From positions 1 to 14,698 of the forward strand of contig JAAZHF010000169.1 of assembly GCA_012510865.1 (NCBI GenBank): DNA of 14,698 nt, written 5' to 3'. The notes under the pieces were generated by a model. That model did no database searches and was not told the origin of the DNA. It saw only the letters and a list, made by a program, of their open reading frames with translations. This DNA is from Gammaproteobacteria bacterium (lineage in GTDB: Bacteria > Pseudomonadota > Gammaproteobacteria > Xanthomonadales > Xanthomonadaceae). The position numbers and the translations under genes are program-made. Of the stretch, positions 1 through 12,636 are shown piece after piece (position 1 is the first letter of the stretch; every line of letters begins with the position of its first letter).

Positions 1-2884
1 CCTCCATTCCCTGCTCGACGTTGGCCTTGGCGAACTCCACGATCAGGATCGCGTTCTTGCTGGTCAGGCCGACCGTGGTGAGCATCGCCACCTGGAAGTA
101 GACGACGCGCTCCATGCCGCGGAAGGTATTGGCCAGCACCGCGCCGAGGATGCCCAGCGGGGCCACCAGAAGGACCGCGGTGGGCCCCGTCCTGCTTTCG
201 TACAGCGCGCCCAGGCACAGGAACACGATCAGCAGCGACAGCGAGTACAGCAGCGGCGTCTGCGCACCGGACTCGCGCTCCTGGAACGACACCGCCGTCC
301 ACTCGATGCCGAAGCCCTCGGGCAGCTGAGCGGCCAGGCGCTCGATCTCCTCCATCGCGACGCCCGAGGCCACGCCCGGCGCTGCCTCGCCCTGGATCTC
401 GACCGCGGGCACGCCGTTGTAGCGCCCCAGGCGCGGCGAGCCGTAGTCCCAGTGCGAGCTGCCGAAGGCGCTGAAGGGCACCATCTCGCCGACGTTGTTC
501 TTCACCGACCAGAGGTTGAAGTCCTCCGGCGTCATGCGGAACGGCGCGTCGGCCTGCACGTAGACGCGCTTGACCCGGCCGCGGTCGATGAAGTCGTCGA
601 TGTACTGGCCACCCCAGGCCGCGGCGAGGGTGGCGTTGATCGCGTCCTGGGTCAGGCCCAGGGCGCCGGCCTTGGCCACGTCCACGTCGATGCGCAGCTG
701 CGGCGTGTCCTCCTGGCCGTTGGGGCGCACGTTGGCCAGCAGCCCGCTCTGGCCTGCCATGCCGAGCAGCTGGTTGCGCGCGTCGATCAGCGCGTCGTGG
801 CCCAGGCCTGCGTTGTCCTTGAGGTAGAACGCATAGCCGCTGGCCACGCCGAGCTCCGGCATCGCCGGGGGCGCGAACACGAAGATGAAGGCGTCCTTGA
901 CCTGGCTCAGCGCGGCCATGCCGCGCCCGGCCACGGCGCTTGCGGAGAGATCGGCGTCGCCGCGCTCGCCCCAGTCCTTGAGCTTGACGAAGGCCATGCC
1001 GGTGTTCTGGCCCATGCCCGCGAAGCTGAAGCCCTGCACCGAGAACACCGATTCGACAGCGTCCGGCTCGTTCTCGAGGAAGTGCTTCTCCAGGCGCTCG
1101 ATCGACTCGACCGTGCGCTCCTGGGTGGCGCCGACCGGCGTCTGGATCATCGCCATCAGCACGCCCTGGTCCTCGTCGGGGAGGAAGGCGGTGGGCAGGC
1201 GCACGAAGAGCAGGCCCATCACCACCACCAGGGCGGCGAACACGGCCATGCCCTTCCACGGCCGCCCCAGGAGCCCGCGCACGGCGCCCTGGTAGCGCTT
1301 GCTGGTGGCGTCGAAGCCCTTGTTGAAGCGGCGGAAGAAGCGCGCGAACAGGCCGTTGCCGGAGTCATGCGCCTCGCCCTTTTCCAGCGGCTTGAGCATG
1401 GTCGCGCACAGCGCAGGCGTCAGCACGATGGCAACGATCACCGATAGCACCATCGCCGACACGATCGTGGCCGAGAATTGCCGGTAGATGACGCCGGTGG
1501 AGCCGGACATGAACGCCATCGGCACGAACACCGCCGACAGCACCACGCCGATGCCGACCAGGGCGCCGGTGATCTGGTCCATCGACTTGCGCGTGGCCTC
1601 GAGCGGGGAAAGCCCCTCCTCGCTCATGATGCGCTCGACGTTCTCGACCACCACGATGGCATCGTCGACCAGCAGGCCGATCGCCAGCACCATCGCGAAC
1701 ATGGTCAGCATGTTGACCGAGAAGCCCAGCGCGGCGAGCACGGCGAAGGTGCCCAGCAGCACCACCGGCACCGCGATCGTGGGGATGATCGTGGCGCGGA
1801 AGTTCTGCAGGAACAGGTACATCACCAGGAACACGAGGGCGATGGCCTCAAGCAGGGTCACGACCACGCCCTTGATCGACACCTTCACGAACGGCGTGGT
1901 GTCGAAGGGGGTCACCGCCACCAGGCCCGGCGGGAAGTAGGGCTCGAGCTGCTCCATGGCCGCGCTGACGCCGGCGGCGGTATCGAGCGCGTTGGCGCCG
2001 GTGGACATCGAGATCGCGACGCCGGTGGCCGGCTGGCCGTTGTAGCGCGACTTGAACTCGTAGGTCTCGGTGCCCATCTCGATCCGCGCGACGTCGCCGA
2101 GCTTCAGCACCGAGCCGTCCGGCTCGCTGCGCACGATGATCTCGCGGAACTGCTCCGGCGTCTGCAGCCGGTCCTGGGCGTTGATGGTGGCGTTGATCTG
2201 CTGGCCGTCGATCGCCGGCGCGCCGCCGAGCACGCCGACCGCGACCTGCGCGTTCTGCGCGCGCACCGCGGAGGTGACCTCGGGGATAGACAGCGGGTAG
2301 GCGTGCAGCTTTTTGGGGTCCAGCCAGATCCGCATCCCGTACTTGCCGCCGAAGACGTGGATGTTGCCCACGCCCGGCACGCGGCTCAGCGGATCGACGA
2401 TGTTCGCGCTGACGTAGTCGGCGATGTCGATCTCGTCCATGCTGCCGTCCTCGGACACGAAGCCGACGACCTGCAGGAAGCTGGTCATCGACTTGGCCAC
2501 GTTGACGCCCTGGCGCTGGACTTCCTGCGGCAGCAGCGGCATCGCCAGCTGCAGCTTGTTCTGCACCTGCACCTGGGCGATGTCGGGGTCGGTCCCGCTC
2601 TCGAAGGTCAGGGTGATCGTGGCGAAGCCGTTCGACGACGACTGCGCGGAGAAGTACATCAGGCCGTCGAGGCCCTTCATGTTCTGCTCGATGACCTGCG
2701 TGACCGAGTCCTCCAGCACCTGCGCCGAGGCGCCCGGGTACATGGCGCGGATCTCGACCGCGGGCGGAGCCACGGTCGGGTACATCGACACCGGCAGGCT
2801 GGTGATCGACAGCGCGCCGGCAAGCATGATGATGATCGCGATGACCCACGCGAAGATGGGCCGGTCGATGAAGAAGCGTGCCAT
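1..2884 (-). CDS. acrB: RND multidrug efflux permease, AcrB/MexB (HAE-1) type, 3' end outside window
   Basis: Inner-membrane proton/drug antiporter of a tripartite RND pump; it takes amphiphilic drugs, dyes and detergents from periplasm and bilayer and passes them to an outer-membrane channel. 961 codons are visible of the roughly 1040-1050 usual for the family, so the C-terminal end lies beyond position 1. The protein opens with [17 protein letters not shown], the typical first transmembrane helix. The proton-relay pair falls at D407-D408 within [16 protein letters not shown], and the relay lysine is K943 in [13 protein letters not shown]; both match AcrB D407/D408/K940. The start ATG at 2884 lies 6 bases after the stop of the adaptor gene, and its AGGAG ribosome site lies inside the adaptor's last codons, indicating translational coupling. 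An outer-membrane factor gene could follow off the left edge. The acrB name reflects family; a Stenotrophomonas worker might call it smeE-like. Confidence 0.96.
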
Positions 2885-2890
2885 CGGGGC

Positions 2891-4144
2891 TTACTCCTGG
2901 TCGGCCGGGGTGGCGGCGTCCGCAGCGTTCGCGGCGTCCGCAGGGTCGGCTGCATCAGCGGCATCGGCGGCGGCCGGCCGCGGCGCGGGCGCGGCCGCCG
3001 GCGGGGCCTCGGCGCGCACCTCCTCCGTCACTTCCACCTCGGCGCCCGGCGCGATCTTCTGCAGGCCTTCGACCACCACGCGGTCGCCCGCGGCAAGGCC
3101 GGACTCCACCAGCCACTGGTCGCCGACGGTCTGGCTGACGACCACCGGGCGCTGTTCGACGACGCCCTGGGCGTTGACCACCATCGCCGAAGTGTTGCCC
3201 TTGGGGTCGCGGGCGATGCCCTGCTGCGGGACCAGCACCGCGTCCTGGCGCACGCCCGAGCGCAGCACGGCGCGGACGTACATCCCCGGCATGAGCACGT
3301 GGTCCGGGTTGGGGACCTCGACGCGCAGGGCGTAGCTGCCGGTGCTCGGATCCACCGCCACCTCGGAGAACTTCAGCGTGCCGGCGTGCGCGAACTCGCT
3401 GCCGTCCTCCAGCAGGATCGTCACCGGCATGGCTTCGTCGCTGCGCTGCAGCCGGCCTTCGGCCAGCGCGCGGCGCAGCTCCAGCAGCTCGGTGCTGGAC
3501 TGGGTCAGGTCGACGTAGATCGGGTCGAGCTGCTGCACCGTGGCCAGCGGCTGGGGCTGGTTGGCGGTCACCAGCGCGCCCTGGGTCACGCTGGAGCGGC
3601 CGATGCGGCCGCTGATCGGCGAGGTGATGCGCGCCCGGCCCAGGGTCACGTTGGCCGCGTCCAGCGCGGCGCGGGCGGCGCCGACGTCGGCTTCGGCCTG
3701 GCCCAGCGCGGCGATGGCGTTGTCGTGGTCCTGCTTGCTGACCGCGCTGACCGCGACCAGCTCGCCGGTGCGCTTCGCGGTCAGGCGCGCCGCCGCGAGC
3801 GTGGCCTCGGCGCGCTTGAGCTGCGCGCGTGCGCTGTTGGCGGCCGCGCGGTAGCTGGCGTCATCGACCTGGTAGAGCGGCTGGCCCGCCTCGACGATCT
3901 CGCCTTCGGTGAACAGGCGCTTGGCCACCAGGCCGTTGACCTGCGGGCGGACCTCGGCCACCAGCCAGGCGCTGGTGCGGCCGGGCAGCTCGCGGCTGAG
4001 CGCGACCGGCTGCGACTGCAGTACCGCCACGGTCACCGCGGGCCTGGGCGGCGCCTGCTGTTCCCCGTTGCCGCCGCAGGCGGCGAGGGCGAGCGTGAGC
4101 GCTGCGAGCAGCGGGAGTGCGCGGCGGGCGAAGGTCGGGGTCAT
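2891..4144 (-). CDS. acrA: RND efflux periplasmic adaptor lipoprotein, AcrA/MexA type
   Basis: Membrane fusion protein linking the permease to the outer-membrane channel. The 417-residue protein starts with a lipoprotein signal whose lipobox LAAC places the lipidated cysteine at residue 23. The usual adaptor order follows: first lipoyl half (about 60-95, RPQVNGLVAKRLFTEGEIV), an alanine-rich alpha-hairpin (about 97-165), second lipoyl half (ARITSPISGRIGRS), beta-barrel (VDLTQSSTELLELRR onward) and membrane-proximal domain (to about 375). The last 40 residues are a low-complexity Ala/Pro/Asp tail with repeated ADAADAAD-like units, which is odd compared with E. coli AcrA and probably disordered. 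The gene leads the operon: its 5' UTR of about 80 bases begins at the promoter holding the TetR operator. A modest AAGG ribosome site lies about 8 bases upstream of the ATG. Family assignment is secure; substrate range cannot be read from sequence. Confidence 0.95.
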   Translation of the reverse strand: MTPTFARRALPLLAALTLALAACGGNGEQQAPPRPAVTVAVLQSQPVALSRELPGRTSAWLVAEVRPQVNGLVAKRLFTEGEIVEAGQPLYQVDDASYRAAANSARAQLKRAEATLAAARLTAKRTGELVAVSAVSKQDHDNAIAALGQAEADVGAARAALDAANVTLGRARITSPISGRIGRSSVTQGALVTANQPQPLATVQQLDPIYVDLTQSSTELLELRRALAEGRLQRSDEAMPVTILLEDGSEFAHAGTLKFSEVAVDPSTGSYALRVEVPNPDHVLMPGMYVRAVLRSGVRQDAVLVPQQGIARDPKGNTSAMVVNAQGVVEQRPVVVSQTVGDQWLVESGLAAGDRVVVEGLQKIAPGAEVEVTEEVRAEAPPAAAPAPRPAAADAADAADPADAANAADAATPADQE

Positions 4145-9368: not shown

Positions 9369-10577
9369 TCACGCGCGCGCGAACACCAGGCTGGCGTTGG
9401 TGCCGCCGAAGCCGAAGCTGTTGGACATCACCGTGGCGAGCGGAGCATCACGGCTCGCGCGCGCGATCGGGAAGCCTTCGGCGCGCGGATCCAGTTCGTC
9501 GATGTGCGCCGAGCCCGCGATGAAGCCATCGCGCATCATCAGCAGGCTGTAGATCGCTTCGTGCACGCTCGCGGCGCCCAGGGAATGCCCGGTCAGCGCC
9601 TTGGTGGACGACAGCGGCGGCATGGAATCGCCGAAGGCCTCGCGCACGGCCTCGAGCTCGACGATGTCGCCCAGCGGCGTCGAAGTGCCGTGGGTGTTGA
9701 GGTAATCCACCGGCGCATGCACGGTGGCGAGCGCGTTCTTCATGCAGCGCACCGCGCCCTCGCCGCTGGGGGCGACCATGTCGCCGCCGTCGGAGGTGAC
9801 GCCGTAGCCAACGAGTTCGGCATGGATCGTCGCACCCCTGGCCTTGGCGTGCCCGTACTCCTCGAGCACCAGCATGCCGCCGCCACCGTCGATGACGAAA
9901 CCATCCCGGCCGGCGTCGTAGGGACGCGAGGCGACCGCGGGCGTGTCGTTGTAGCCCGAGGACAGCGCGCCCATGGCGTCGAACATCGCCGTCATCGCCC
10001 AGTGCACCTCCTCCCCGCCGCCCGCGAACACCACGTCCTGCGTGCCGTGGCGGATCAGGTCCGCGGCGGCTCCGATGCAGTGCGCCGACGTGGCGCAGGC
10101 GGCCGAGATCGAATAGCTCAGGCCGAGGATCCCGAACGCGGTCGCGAGCGTGGCCGACACCGTCGAGCACATCGTTCGCGGGACCATGTAGGGGCCGACC
10201 TTGCGCACGCCCTTCGCGCGCAGGAGGTCGGCGGTGGCCACCTGCCACTCGGCCGACCCGCCGCCGGAACCGGCGATCACGCCCACGCGCGGGTTGCGCA
10301 CCTGCTCGAGCGTCAGCCCCGCCTGCGCGATGGCGTCGCGCATCGCCACCCAGGCATAGGCCGCCGCATCGCCCATGAAGCGGCGGCGCTTGCGGTCGAT
10401 CTCCGCGTCCAGGTCGATGCGCGGGACGCCGGCCACCTGGCTGCGGAGCCCGAGCTCCGCGTACTCGGGGACGGCGGCGATCCCGCTGCGACCCTCGCGC
10501 AGCGCGCGGGAGACCTCGTCAAGGGTGTTCCCCAGGCACGACACGATGCCCATGCCGGTCACGACCACGCGGCGCAT
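9369..10577 (-). CDS. fabB: Beta-ketoacyl-ACP synthase I
   Basis: Cytosolic condensing enzyme that elongates acyl chains in type II fatty acid synthesis and is needed for the unsaturated branch. The 402-residue length fits FabB (E. coli 406). The Cys-His-His triad is present: C161 in [11 protein letters not shown]296 in [11 protein letters not shown] and H331 in [11 protein letters not shown], with K326 also conserved. The N-terminus [17 protein letters not shown] and the glycine-rich C-terminal [11 protein letters not shown] are canonical. Its ATG shares one base with the fabA stop (TGATG on the minus strand), so the two are translationally coupled. The fabA-fabB pairing favours FabB over FabF, which has a similar fold but usually follows acpP. 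Confidence 0.97.
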
Positions 10578-11092
10578 CAGTTGTCCTCCAGGTCCTTGAA
10601 AAGGCCCACGCGCATGCTGCTGACATGGTAGATCTCGCAATCGTCGACGTAGGTCCGGCCGTCGGCGATCACCAGGGGCACGCGGCCCCGCATCACCCGG
10701 CGGATGTCGATGCCGTAGCGCACGCACTTCGCGCTCGGCAGGACCTGGCCGGAGAACTTCAGCTCGCCGCAGCCCAGCGCGCGGCCGCGGCCCGGCTCGC
10801 CCAGCCAGGGCAGGTAGAAGCCGGCCAGCTGGAACATCGCGTCGAGGCCGAGGCAGCCCGGCATCACCGGATCGCCGAGGAAGTGGCAGTCGAAGAACCA
10901 CATGTCGGGGGTGATGTCGAGCTCGGCTTCGATCACGCCCTTGCCGTAGGCACCGCCTTCGCTGGAAATGTGGGTGATGCGGTCGAGCATCAGCATCGGC
11001 GGCGCAGGCAGGCGGGCGTTGCCCTCGCCGAACATCTCGCCGCGGCCACAGGCCAGCAGCTGCTCGCGGTCGAGCGAAGAGGGACGCGTCAT
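10577..11092 (-). CDS. fabA: 3-hydroxydecanoyl-ACP dehydratase/isomerase
   Basis: Bifunctional enzyme that dehydrates 3-hydroxydecanoyl-ACP and isomerises trans-2- to cis-3-decenoyl-ACP, the branch point of anaerobic unsaturated fatty acid synthesis. 171 residues against 172 in E. coli. The catalytic pair is H70 ([14 protein letters not shown]) and D84 (LGLDAMFQ), at the same numbers as E. coli FabA. The hot-dog fold landmarks [15 protein letters not shown] and the [13 protein letters not shown] strand are present. The ATG at 11092 has AGGAG 5 bases upstream; the frame remains open further upstream by chance. A somewhat AT-richer stretch at 11124-11160 probably holds the promoter, but I could not define hexamers or a FabR/FadR-type operator. 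Confidence 0.97.
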
Positions 11093-11535: not shown

Positions 11536-11779
11536 CGCGGGATACGCGATCGACGTCCGCGGCAAGCGCGCCGGGCTCTTCGATGCGATCGGCGACCACA
11601 GCCTCCTCGCCGCCCTCTTCGAAGGACTGGCCGTGCGCAGCATCCGCAACCCCGGGCTCGGCACCACCCTGGACCGGGCGATGTTCAAGCGCGTGCTGCG
11701 CAGCGTCCTGACCGGCTGCGCGGGCCGTCCGGCGGGGACGCCGGTTCGCCCGACAGCACGACAGCCGCCTGGGCGCTAG
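11536..11779 (+). pseudogene. 3' fragment of an unrecognised plus-strand gene
   Basis: Plus-strand translation up to a TAG at 11779 looks like real protein, with high third-position GC and balanced residues: [20 protein letters not shown], then [18 protein letters not shown] and [16 protein letters not shown]. Upstream of about 11536 the same frame is only the antisense of the membrane-protein remnant, so this gene seems to lack its 5' end. No start codon with a ribosome site is visible. I do not recognise the family. Its stop is 6 bases from the 3' end of the tRNA gene on the other strand. Together with the neighbouring remnant it suggests a past rearrangement beside the tRNA. Confidence 0.4.
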
Positions 11780-11785
11780 GGATCG

Positions 11786-12107
11786 TGGTGGGCCCACCAG
11801 GATTCGAACCTGGAACCAAGGGATTCGCGTGGTCCACGGGTTTCCCCGCGGCGCGGACTATCTCTTCACCCTCCGCCTCGGCGGGTGGGGTGCGGGACGC
11901 TCGAGCCTGTGATCAAGGGCACTCCAGCCCCCAGGTAGTCTCTGCACCTTCCGGCGGTGTACCGCCGGCTTGGCTCAGGGTTGCCACCGTCCGGCATGGC
12001 TGCCGCCGCTGAGGGTTCCCTGAATTCATCCCGTTCCCGTCCGCGCATTCCTGCGCGGCGGCACCTTGTCGATGAGTCCCCTGCTCTAACCGTTGAGCTA
12101 TAGGCCC
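11786..12107 (-). tRNA. tRNA-Ile2 (CAU anticodon, lysidine type), interrupted by a group I intron
   Basis: Two exons make a complete 76-nt tRNA. The 5' exon (12107-12072, 36 nt) gives acceptor strand GGGCCTA, the D-arm GCTC...GAGC, anticodon-stem strand GGGGA and ends exactly at the anticodon CAT. The 3' exon (11825-11786, 40 nt) gives AA, the stem strand TCCCT, the variable loop TTGGTT region, a perfect T-arm (CCAGG-TTCGAAT-CCTGG), acceptor strand TGGGCCC, discriminator A and an encoded CCA. All four stems pair after the exons are joined. The CAU anticodon with an Ile2-like body (short D-loop, variable loop as in E. coli ileX) points to the AUA-reading tRNA whose C34 becomes lysidine through TilS; elongator tRNA-Met is the less likely alternative. 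Because this isoacceptor is usually single-copy and essential, splicing should be efficient. Confidence 0.93.
11826..12071 (-). ncRNA. Group I self-splicing intron in the tRNA-Ile(CAU) anticodon loop
   Basis: The 246-nt insert lies between tRNA positions 36 and 37 and carries a full group I core. P1: internal guide GUG (12062-12064) pairs with exon CAU, placing a U-G pair at the 5' splice site. P2: 7-bp hairpin with GGAA loop (12041-12058). P3: CGGGATG (12027-12033) with CGTCCCG (11893-11899). P4: TCAGGG (12018-12023) with CCCTGA (11975-11980), followed by the classic CTGAGCCAAGCC. P5 lies between the P4 strands. P6: CCGGCGG hairpin (11951-11968). P7: GACTA (11936-11940) with TAGTC (11856-11860), preceded by the conserved GGTGCAGA. 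P8: 11867-11887. P9: hairpin with GAAA loop (11834-11851). The last base is G. It matches subgroup IC3 and, from memory, the 205-nt Azoarcus tRNA-Ile intron. No homing endonuclease is encoded. Confidence 0.94.
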
Positions 12108-12116
12108 GGTCCCGGG

Positions 12117-12125
12117 ATGCTAGCA
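12117..12125 (-). promoter_or_regulatory. Extended -10 promoter element of the tRNA gene
   Basis: On the minus strand TGCTAGCAT forms a TGn-TAGCAT extended -10, ending 9 bases before the first tRNA base, with the GC-rich discriminator CCCGGGACC between. No convincing -35 is seen. Start would fall a few bases before the mature 5' end. GC-rich discriminators are usual at stringently controlled stable-RNA promoters. Confidence 0.45.
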
Positions 12126-12163
12126 AAGCCCCGGCCGCGCAGGTGCCGTGTCCGACAAGGGAA

Positions 12164-12209
12164 TCGCACGGCCGCGACCGGACGACGAGGGCCGGCCACG
12201 GCCGTGCGA
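12164..12209. repeat. Inverted repeat with 11-bp arms upstream of the tRNA gene
   Basis: TCGCACGGCCG (12164-12174) and its exact complement (12199-12209) flank 24 bases. It sits between the lipoprotein stop and the tRNA promoter. It may form a second terminator-like stem for lipoprotein transcripts; the function is unknown. Confidence 0.4.
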
Positions 12210-12215
12210 CACGAT

Positions 12216-12241
12216 CCCGGCGGGGCGAAGCGCCCGCCGGG
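12216..12241 (-). terminator. Hairpin downstream of the small lipoprotein gene
   Basis: CCCGGCGGG and CCCGCCGGG are exact complements; with one bulged G the stem extends through GGGCG/CGCCC to an AAG loop. It begins 18 bases after the lipoprotein stop. The T-run is missing, so the assignment rests on position and stem strength. Confidence 0.5.
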
Positions 12242-12258
12242 CTCGTCCAGGGGACGGA

Positions 12259-12636
12259 TCACATGCCGTCGGTATTGTTCTCGGCGTCGGCGGCGGCCGC
12301 GGCCTCCTCGGCGGCATCCTGCGCCTGTTCGGCGGCGTCCGCGGCCTTCTCGGCCGCATCGGCGAGGTCCTCGCGGCGCGTCATGTCGCCGCTGCCGTCG
12401 ACCTGGCCGGCGATGTGCGCCGACGCGTCGGCCGCGGCATCGGCGGCTTCCGCGGCCGCCCAGGCGGAATCCGTGGCCGCCTGGTCGCCGGTGGCGCTGG
12501 CGTGCTGGGCCGCTTCCTGGGCCTCGGTGGCCGACTCCGCGGCCTCCTGGGCGGAGTTGGCCGCCTGGTCGGTATTGCTGCACGCGGCCAGCGCAGTGGC
12601 AAAGGCGACGGCAAGAAGGGTCTTGGCAGTGTTCAT
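12259..12636 (-). CDS. Small alanine-rich coiled-coil lipoprotein
   Basis: A 125-residue lipoprotein precursor. The signal peptide ends in the lipobox LAAC with the lipidated cysteine at residue 19; serine at +2 predicts outer-membrane delivery by Lol. The mature chain is very rich in Ala, Glu, Asp and Gln with heptad-like spacing ([17 protein letters not shown], then [20 protein letters not shown]), so a long amphipathic helix or coiled coil is likely, in the general style of Lpp-like proteins. There is no C-terminal lysine for peptidoglycan attachment; it ends NNTDGM. AGGAG lies 5 bases before the ATG at 12636. It is transcribed alone between the beta-CASP gene and the tRNA gene. No specific function can be assigned. 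Confidence 0.85.

Follow-up and report, generated by a model that had tools for sequence, protein, structure and literature searches.

The minus strand of the window (the whole stretch of 14,698 nt analysed here) carries, from position 12107 to 11786, a tRNA-Ile(CAU) gene in two parts with a 246-nt group I intron between them. The element is a well-preserved group I intron and a new representative of an already known kind of tRNA-Ile(CAU) intron. We consider it very probable that the intron splices itself from the tRNA-Ile(CAU) precursor, that the mature tRNA reads AUA, and that the intron is kept at low cost and comes and goes. This explanation is based on the anatomy of the gene, covariation in the variable helices, an exact empty site, the lack of a second intact copy in the two genomes inspected and the presence of tilS.

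Anatomy and conservation of the split gene

The initial annotation, made from the letters alone, had placed a tRNA-Ile(CAU) gene split by a 246-nt group I intron at 11786-12107. These coordinates are right. The Rfam model Intron_gpI (RF00028), searched with an E-value threshold, matched the intron from end to end (model positions 1-253 of 253; 47.6 bits, E 4.3e-11). The features are listed below, where R1 is a covariance model of the long intron type, built from 42 introns including that of the window. Pair and cell counts refer to an alignment (A2) of 42 long-type introns, again with that of the window, which we picked for diversity and length from 112 distinct introns among the matches listed.

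12072..12107, minus strand: tRNA-Ile(CAU) 5' exon, nt 1-36 with CAU at its end; read from the sequence, and adjoining exon 2 in intron-less relatives
11826..12071, minus strand: group I intron, 246 nt, last base G; RF00028 47.6 bits, E 4.3e-11; R1 245.5 bits; missing in 39 of 51 same-genus relatives
11786..11825, minus strand: tRNA-Ile(CAU) 3' exon, nt 37-76, 40 nt, CCA encoded; from sequence and cloverleaf
12062..12064, minus strand: internal guide GUG; pairs with the anticodon CAU (12072-12074) in a 3-bp P1 with a U.G wobble at the 5' splice site; all three pairs identical in 42 of 42
12037..12061, minus strand: P2 hairpin with a GGAA loop; two-sided changes in 9 of 10 pairs; 84.3% of cells paired; GNRA loop in 40 of 42
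12027..12033, minus strand: P3 5' strand (3' strand 11893-11899); 98.6% of cells paired; 6 of 7 pairs invariant
12018..12023, minus strand: P4 5' strand (3' strand 11975-11980); 100% of cells paired; 5 of 6 pairs invariant
11946..11974, minus strand: P6 and P6a; in P6a, two-sided changes in 7 of 7 pairs and 100% paired
11936..11940, minus strand: P7 5' strand, the G-binding helix (3' strand 11856-11860); invariant in 42
11906..11935, minus strand: P7.1, an additional hairpin in the P7-P3 segment; inserted with respect to the Rfam consensus; inner helix with two-sided changes in 2 of 4 pairs and 100% paired, outer helix invariant
11867..11892, minus strand: P8 hairpin; two helices with 97.1% and 85.8% of cells paired
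11834..11851, minus strand: P9 hairpin with a GAAA loop; two-sided changes in 5 of 7 pairs; 90.1% paired; GAAA in 39 of 42
11827..11829, minus strand: P9.0 3' strand, adjoining the terminal G (5' strand 11852-11854); 3 bp; two-sided changes in 2 of 3 pairs; 96% paired
11826..11826, minus strand: terminal G of the intron; alignment column invariant in 42

Joined together, the exons form a 76-nt CAU cloverleaf that ARAGORN labels tRNA-Met(cat), its label for every CAU. An intron-aware tRNA finder had been proposed as a check, and ARAGORN in intron mode does find the split gene, but its junction is two bases early and its call is tRNA-Arg(ccg). We place the junction between U36 and A37, as first claimed, because of the empty sites in relatives and the terminal G. 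The group I core helices P3-P8 are present, P5 and the P3/P7 pseudoknot included, and P4, P5 and P7 are kept and nearly invariant. All of the core elements named initially (P3, P4, P6, P7, P8, a GAAA-capped P9 and the terminal G) are there, but the P7.1 hairpin between P7 and P3 had been missed. No protein-coding sequence lies inside the intron, and a promoter scan of 11600-12400 gave 0 hits with 0.0 expected. Other Rfam matches in the window (ycf2 leader, tRNA-Sec twice and mgtE) had E-values no better than 0.22 and were not considered further.

The structure drawn on the window (P1-P9 and P9.0) has 95.5% of cells paired across the 42 introns, with two-sided changes in 29 pairs and a covariation score of 0.311. 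Column-shuffle controls reached 85.2% of cells, 22.8 pairs and a score of 0.120. Slid-partner controls gave 33-42% paired, 12-18 pairs and 0.041-0.067, a comparison that is biased in favour of the drawn structure, which was taken from one member sequence. The GUG guide, which had been described as facing CAU in a 3-bp P1, is the same in 42 of 42 introns, as are the U.G wobble and the terminal G. P1, P5, P7 and the outer P7.1 helix are likewise invariant and P3, P4 and P6 nearly so; the covariation support comes from the variable helices only. Unpaired cells are most frequent in P2 (84.3% paired), the inner P8 helix (85.8%) and P9 (90.1%). The best RNAfold structure of the whole gene contains P2, P3, P4, P6a, the inner P7.1 helix, P8 and P9, with a z-score of -2.73, and one of 100 shuffled sequences folds equally well.

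The prediction that annotation would easily miss this gene was borne out. Plain ARAGORN reports no tRNA anywhere in the window, and an Rfam search of the window at the gathering threshold returns nothing. The whole-model RF00028 match, the covariance-model check proposed at the outset, lies 2.4 bits under the curated gathering value of 50, so routine annotation would overlook the intron. Among 15 related loci searched with RF00028, 11 reach the gathering score; those below it are the copy in the window (L001), a 97% identical one (L002), the degraded L018 and the truncated L104. When tRNA-Ile(CAU) genes with such introns vanish from annotation, genomes seem unable to read AUA, and R1, as a model of the long intron class, would recover the overlooked genes. 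The tRNAscan-SE 2.0 paper, in its account of such introns, counts 36 genomes that lack an fMet or Ile2 gene owing to them, the Ile2 cases being in Acidovorax and Burkholderia (PMC8450103).

Distribution, kinship and descent of the intron

A search of 101 genomes with the whole 322-nt gene gave a full-length match in 17 (own genome included) and a partial match in one more, G082. Within the genus (52 genomes), the intron is present in 12, again counting the window's own genome, the exons are directly adjacent in 39, and one genome (G037) has no match. Both intron-free and intron-bearing relatives, which the initial annotation had suggested scanning for, therefore exist, and 39 of the 51 same-genus genomes besides our own show an empty site with its junction exactly at U36/A37. 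The accompanying view that such an intron is noteworthy in a Xanthomonadaceae-like genome does not hold at these frequencies; it is not rare. DNA like the end of the window's rpoD, an ORF that we named by eye from its translation, lies upstream of the gene both with the intron (e.g. L003, L009 and L013) and without it (L019, L024 and L025). With the intron present at one locus in some members of a single genus and absent in others, culturable bacteria can be used to test how a tRNA intron is gained and lost and what it costs.

The partially matching genome, G082, has at locus L018 an intact tRNA-Ile(CAU) at 1280-1355 and, at 1439-1689, a degraded intron together with a portion of its 5' exon (R1 132.1 bits); this is possibly a replacement in progress.

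The named genomes were then scanned for tRNA-Ile(CAU) genes in which the base after the anticodon is not A, which gave at least 119 loci. Among the matches listed, R1 matches 115 of 119 (96/100 and 19/19) with 35.6 to 257.6 bits, some of them clipped at the end of the locus. L036, L092, L113 and L121 have no R1 match and were taken as false pattern matches; RF00028 found nothing in the genomes of the last three. Intron loci among the matches listed come from Lysobacter daejeonensis, Luteimonas aestuarii, Rhodanobacter fulvus and five Dyella species, together with many Gammaproteobacteria, Proteobacteria and Burkholderiales records and with Runella, Hymenobacter, Emticicia and an Opitutia MAG. 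Among 20 genomes picked from the more unusual ones, RF00028 detects an intron in 17, with 15 over the cut-off. Counted whatever the host gene, R1 matches 56 of 369 genomes drawn evenly from the class (E up to 1e-4; 29 above 125 bits) and 32 of 398 drawn evenly from the phylum, where 30 of 33 matches score 90.5 bits or less. In the family of an Azonexus MAG, the pattern occurs in three of 150 genomes, and a search of plasmids found no similar DNA. In four betaproteobacterial loci (L034, L077, L108 and L110), another tRNA-Ile 5' half lies 187-271 bases upstream of the one that carries the intron; judged by eye, the bases that follow this extra half would pair with its anticodon stem in L110 and fail to do so in L034, L077 and L108.

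The P7.1 hairpin is 30 nt long and is part of an insertion in the Rfam alignment. From the start of P7 to the start of its partner strand there are 80 nt in the window, compared with 44-47 nt in four short introns; by this distance, the 112 distinct introns among the matches listed divide into 107 long and four short ones, with L130 unclassed. The short introns (L041, L110, L122 and L139, from four betaproteobacterial records) are without P7.1 and start with G, and their 3' ends look like that of the Azoarcus ribozyme. A strict two-helix rule for P7.1 is satisfied by 93 of the 107 long introns among the matches listed, against 14.9 expected from shuffles. L015 and L109, two of the 14 that fail, are misread or different; the other 12 are betaproteobacterial or Bacteroidota introns that, on their letters, seem to pair with another sequence (GGGTG...CACCC or AGAAG...CTTCT).

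The Azoarcus tRNA-Ile(CAU) intron is about 205 nt long and reportedly, going by a reference title, of class IC3. P7.1 occurs in IA kinds of group I introns, and the intron in the window could belong to another subgroup that has P7.1 rather than to IC3. The resemblance to Azoarcus asserted initially stands for the tRNA gene, the CAU tag and the 3-nt guide, as they appear in the relevant passage of PMC6274277, and for the core. It fails for the long P7-P3 segment with P7.1, a comparison made by proxy through the four short betaproteobacterial introns, and for the R1 scores, which are 69.7-80.6 bits for complete short G-starting introns against 245.5 bits for the window, itself in the model. The same long segment is found in the Comamonadaceae relatives L035, L086 (Variovorax) and L134 (Extensimonas), whose introns are 58-59% identical to that of the window in an alignment of all introns.

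The tRNA-Ile2 introns of Acidovorax and Burkholderia are of the same gene and class as ours, and the passage that describes them names no Gammaproteobacteria proper (PMC8450103). Alphaproteobacterial tRNA-Arg(CCU) introns such as BbgpI of Bartonella also interrupt an un-annotated tRNA; there the tRNA is a different one, splicing was shown in vivo and in vitro, and the likeness is drawn from the description (PMC7717549). In their parts on the subject, a 2014 tRNA review places tRNA group I introns in cyanobacteria, alpha- and betaproteobacteria (PMC4033280), a 2017 survey gives cyanobacterial introns in tRNA-Arg, -Gly and -Lys (PMC5733544), and interrupted tRNA-Arg and tRNA-Leu genes are described in the gammaproteobacteria Beggiatoa and Thiomargarita (PMC4853749). 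Searches of the open-licence literature turned up neither a report on Xanthomonadales with a tRNA-Ile intron nor one on phage tRNA genes with introns.

The history of the intron was examined on an rpoB tree of 29 genomes (17 full-length intron bearers and 12 empty ones; four rpoB sequences are partial). G043, with no rpoB match, was left out of this tree, and the degraded L018 of G082 does not enter the intron alignments or trees. A ketoacyl-synthase-like neighbour gene was rejected as a host marker in favour of rpoB, as its matches were about 40% identical and came from only 11 of 30 genomes. The rpoB gene of our own draft genome (G000:C231:775-4092) has one in-frame TAG and stops at the contig end, which is probably an assembly error.

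A vertical relic, present in the Xanthomonadales ancestor, mostly lost since and nowhere gained horizontally, would agree with a gene neighbourhood that is unchanged with or without the intron. It would also agree with the correlation between intron and rpoB identity over genome pairs (Spearman 0.75, the pairs not being independent), which speaks for much vertical descent. Against it, the trait requires at least eight changes on the rpoB tree, and well-supported branches force five of these. As few changes suffice in 92 of 500 label shuffles, which means that clustering of the trait is not clear. The rpoB of G054 groups with those of G029 and G033 (100/99), yet its intron is 93.1% identical to that of the window, and G074 and G090, whose rpoB genes are 92.2% identical, share one and the same intron sequence within a 1149-bp stretch that is 86.8% identical overall. 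Both cases speak for some transfer or strong constraint, and we find descent by loss alone possible but rather doubtful. The intron tree of 17 rows has no well-supported branch and is too weak to decide.

Identity of the tRNA and the case for splicing

The best 10 matches listed for the spliced gene in E. coli are all annotated as tRNA-Ile, with up to 81.6% identity over 76 nt, and 5364 of 5426 E. coli genomes have a match. By sequence, the host gene looks like tRNA-Ile2 and not tRNA-Met. TilS makes a CAU anticodon read AUA, and tilS scored over its cut-off in all four genomes tested (G000, G015, G017 and G029).

With the spliced tRNA as query, all matches in eight intron-bearing genomes other than the split gene itself were weaker, at 72-80% identity. 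Those inspected in our own genome (G000) and in Luteimonas granuli Gr-4 (G015), whose split gene is 97% identical to that of the window, are two tRNA-Lys genes each and, in the latter, one other CAU tRNA (L251 72-148; G015:C1:1205721-1205797). A second intact tRNA-Ile(CAU) was found neither in our own genome, a 91% complete draft, nor in the one-contig L. granuli, so the split gene presumably must splice; it seems to be the sole tRNA-Ile(CAU) gene. All 11 genomes searched contain the other CAU tRNA (87-100% identity), four of them with the split gene and seven with an intact tRNA-Ile(CAU), and because it also occurs in the latter it is no stand-in for the split gene. Going by its acceptor stem it is probably an elongator tRNA-Met, a reading that is not certain; its listed best E. 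coli matches, in 2854 genomes, are annotated tRNA-Ile, which counts against this.

In the precursor, the anticodon CAU would pair with the GUG guide of the intron to form P1, and a guanosine bound in P7 would cut after U36. U36 would then attack after the terminal G, joining the exons and releasing the intron, and C34 of the mature tRNA would be modified by TilS to read AUA. This chemistry is predicted, as is its independence from helper proteins. In the seven window ORFs checked, ATA accounts for none of 122 Ile codons, so the tRNA is little used in the window genes, and low AUA use may be what makes this gene a tolerant home for an intron. The intron would be retained because its removal is cheap in a cell that hardly uses AUA, a low-cost argument that we infer, and it would be gained and lost over evolution.

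Self-splicing could instead have been lost, with a host protein now needed or with splicing now poor. Group I introns are presumed to need protein cofactors to some extent in vivo, according to the BbgpI account (PMC7717549), and AUA demand in the window looks so low that poor splicing might be tolerated. The core helices, the guide, the G site and the terminal G are all preserved, however, and the one-contig relative has no other tRNA-Ile(CAU) copy that we could find, which makes both variants unlikely. That the split gene is a dead copy, with another tRNA serving AUA, is highly improbable: G082, with its degraded intron copy next to an intact tRNA-Ile(CAU), indicates that this can happen, and the further CAU tRNA has E. 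coli matches annotated as tRNA-Ile, but that tRNA also accompanies intact tRNA-Ile(CAU) genes, G000 and G015 hold no other candidate for an AUA-reading tRNA, and the exons give a full cloverleaf.

Related introns in viral genomes

The same pattern was found in 27 viral stretches of IMG/VR. R1 matches 18 of them, 17 at or within the split tRNA (L218 weakly, with 22.6 bits) and one (L230) elsewhere, and a match is lacking in the other nine. L223, L232 and L235 have a 751-nt intron in common; the first bases of L224 are as in this intron, and no 3' exon was found there. In L223, a 221-kb viral contig, the intron lies at 2321-3071 in a tRNA-Ile(CAU) and contains an HNH endonuclease ORF (2396-3007). 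ORFs flanking L212, L216, L221 and L233 match PHROGs families, and PHROGs gave no match for the two large L237 proteins tried. On L237, a 97-kb viral contig, a PP-loop ATPase gene (PF01171, 114.5 bits; 10273-10923), TilS-like by family, lies just downstream of the split tRNA-Ile(CAU).

Klebsiella phage Muenster (MT708547.1; L239 1458-1768) has an un-annotated tRNA-Ile(CAU) in a tRNA cluster, with an intron after CAU that scores 145.2 bits with R1, P7.1 included, and sits at the same nucleotide as that of the window. DNA similar to this locus occurs in phages KP13-7, RCIP0023 and phiKp_21. Together with the introns beside psbA in Synechococcus phage S-SRM01 (135.6 bits) and in the terminase gene of Vibrio phage 1.187.O (128.4 bits), whose host genes differ from that of the window, the Muenster intron is a full-length R1 match that outscores the short betaproteobacterial introns. 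S-SRM01 was rejected as a case of a tRNA intron, as its match adjoins psbA; its locus (L150) has three R1 matches (57.6, 135.6 and 94.4 bits) around a split psbA gene.

Across several viral lineages, introns of the P7.1-bearing class interrupt tRNA-Ile(CAU) at the same nucleotide, and one or more of them enclose an HNH endonuclease gene. Those in viral tRNA genes are distant relatives of the intron in the window, which has bacterial introns alone as its nearest rows; the comparison demonstrates a shared class but no direct transfer. We tentatively suggest that phages with their own tRNA-Ile(CAU) are the vehicle: they would have seeded bacterial tRNA-Ile(CAU) genes, this one among them, with introns that are patchy in occurrence and free of endonucleases. 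The phage connection deserves a separate study. According to the pertinent parts of a 2014 review, every phage group I intron known at that time interrupted a protein gene, although phages have many tRNA genes, and there was little evidence for interspecies movement of bacterial introns (PMC3984707); the phage tRNA copies bear on the gap stated there. A jumbo-phage review, in its passage on the subject, mentions tRNA introns only in general (PMC12908238). R1-type introns were also seen in a 735-kb uncultured phage (L240 1118-1349; 126.9 bits) and in the crAss-like phage cr128_1 (L241 1107-1356; 125.4 bits), and in both the flanks look, by eye, like the anticodon-arm halves of other tRNAs.
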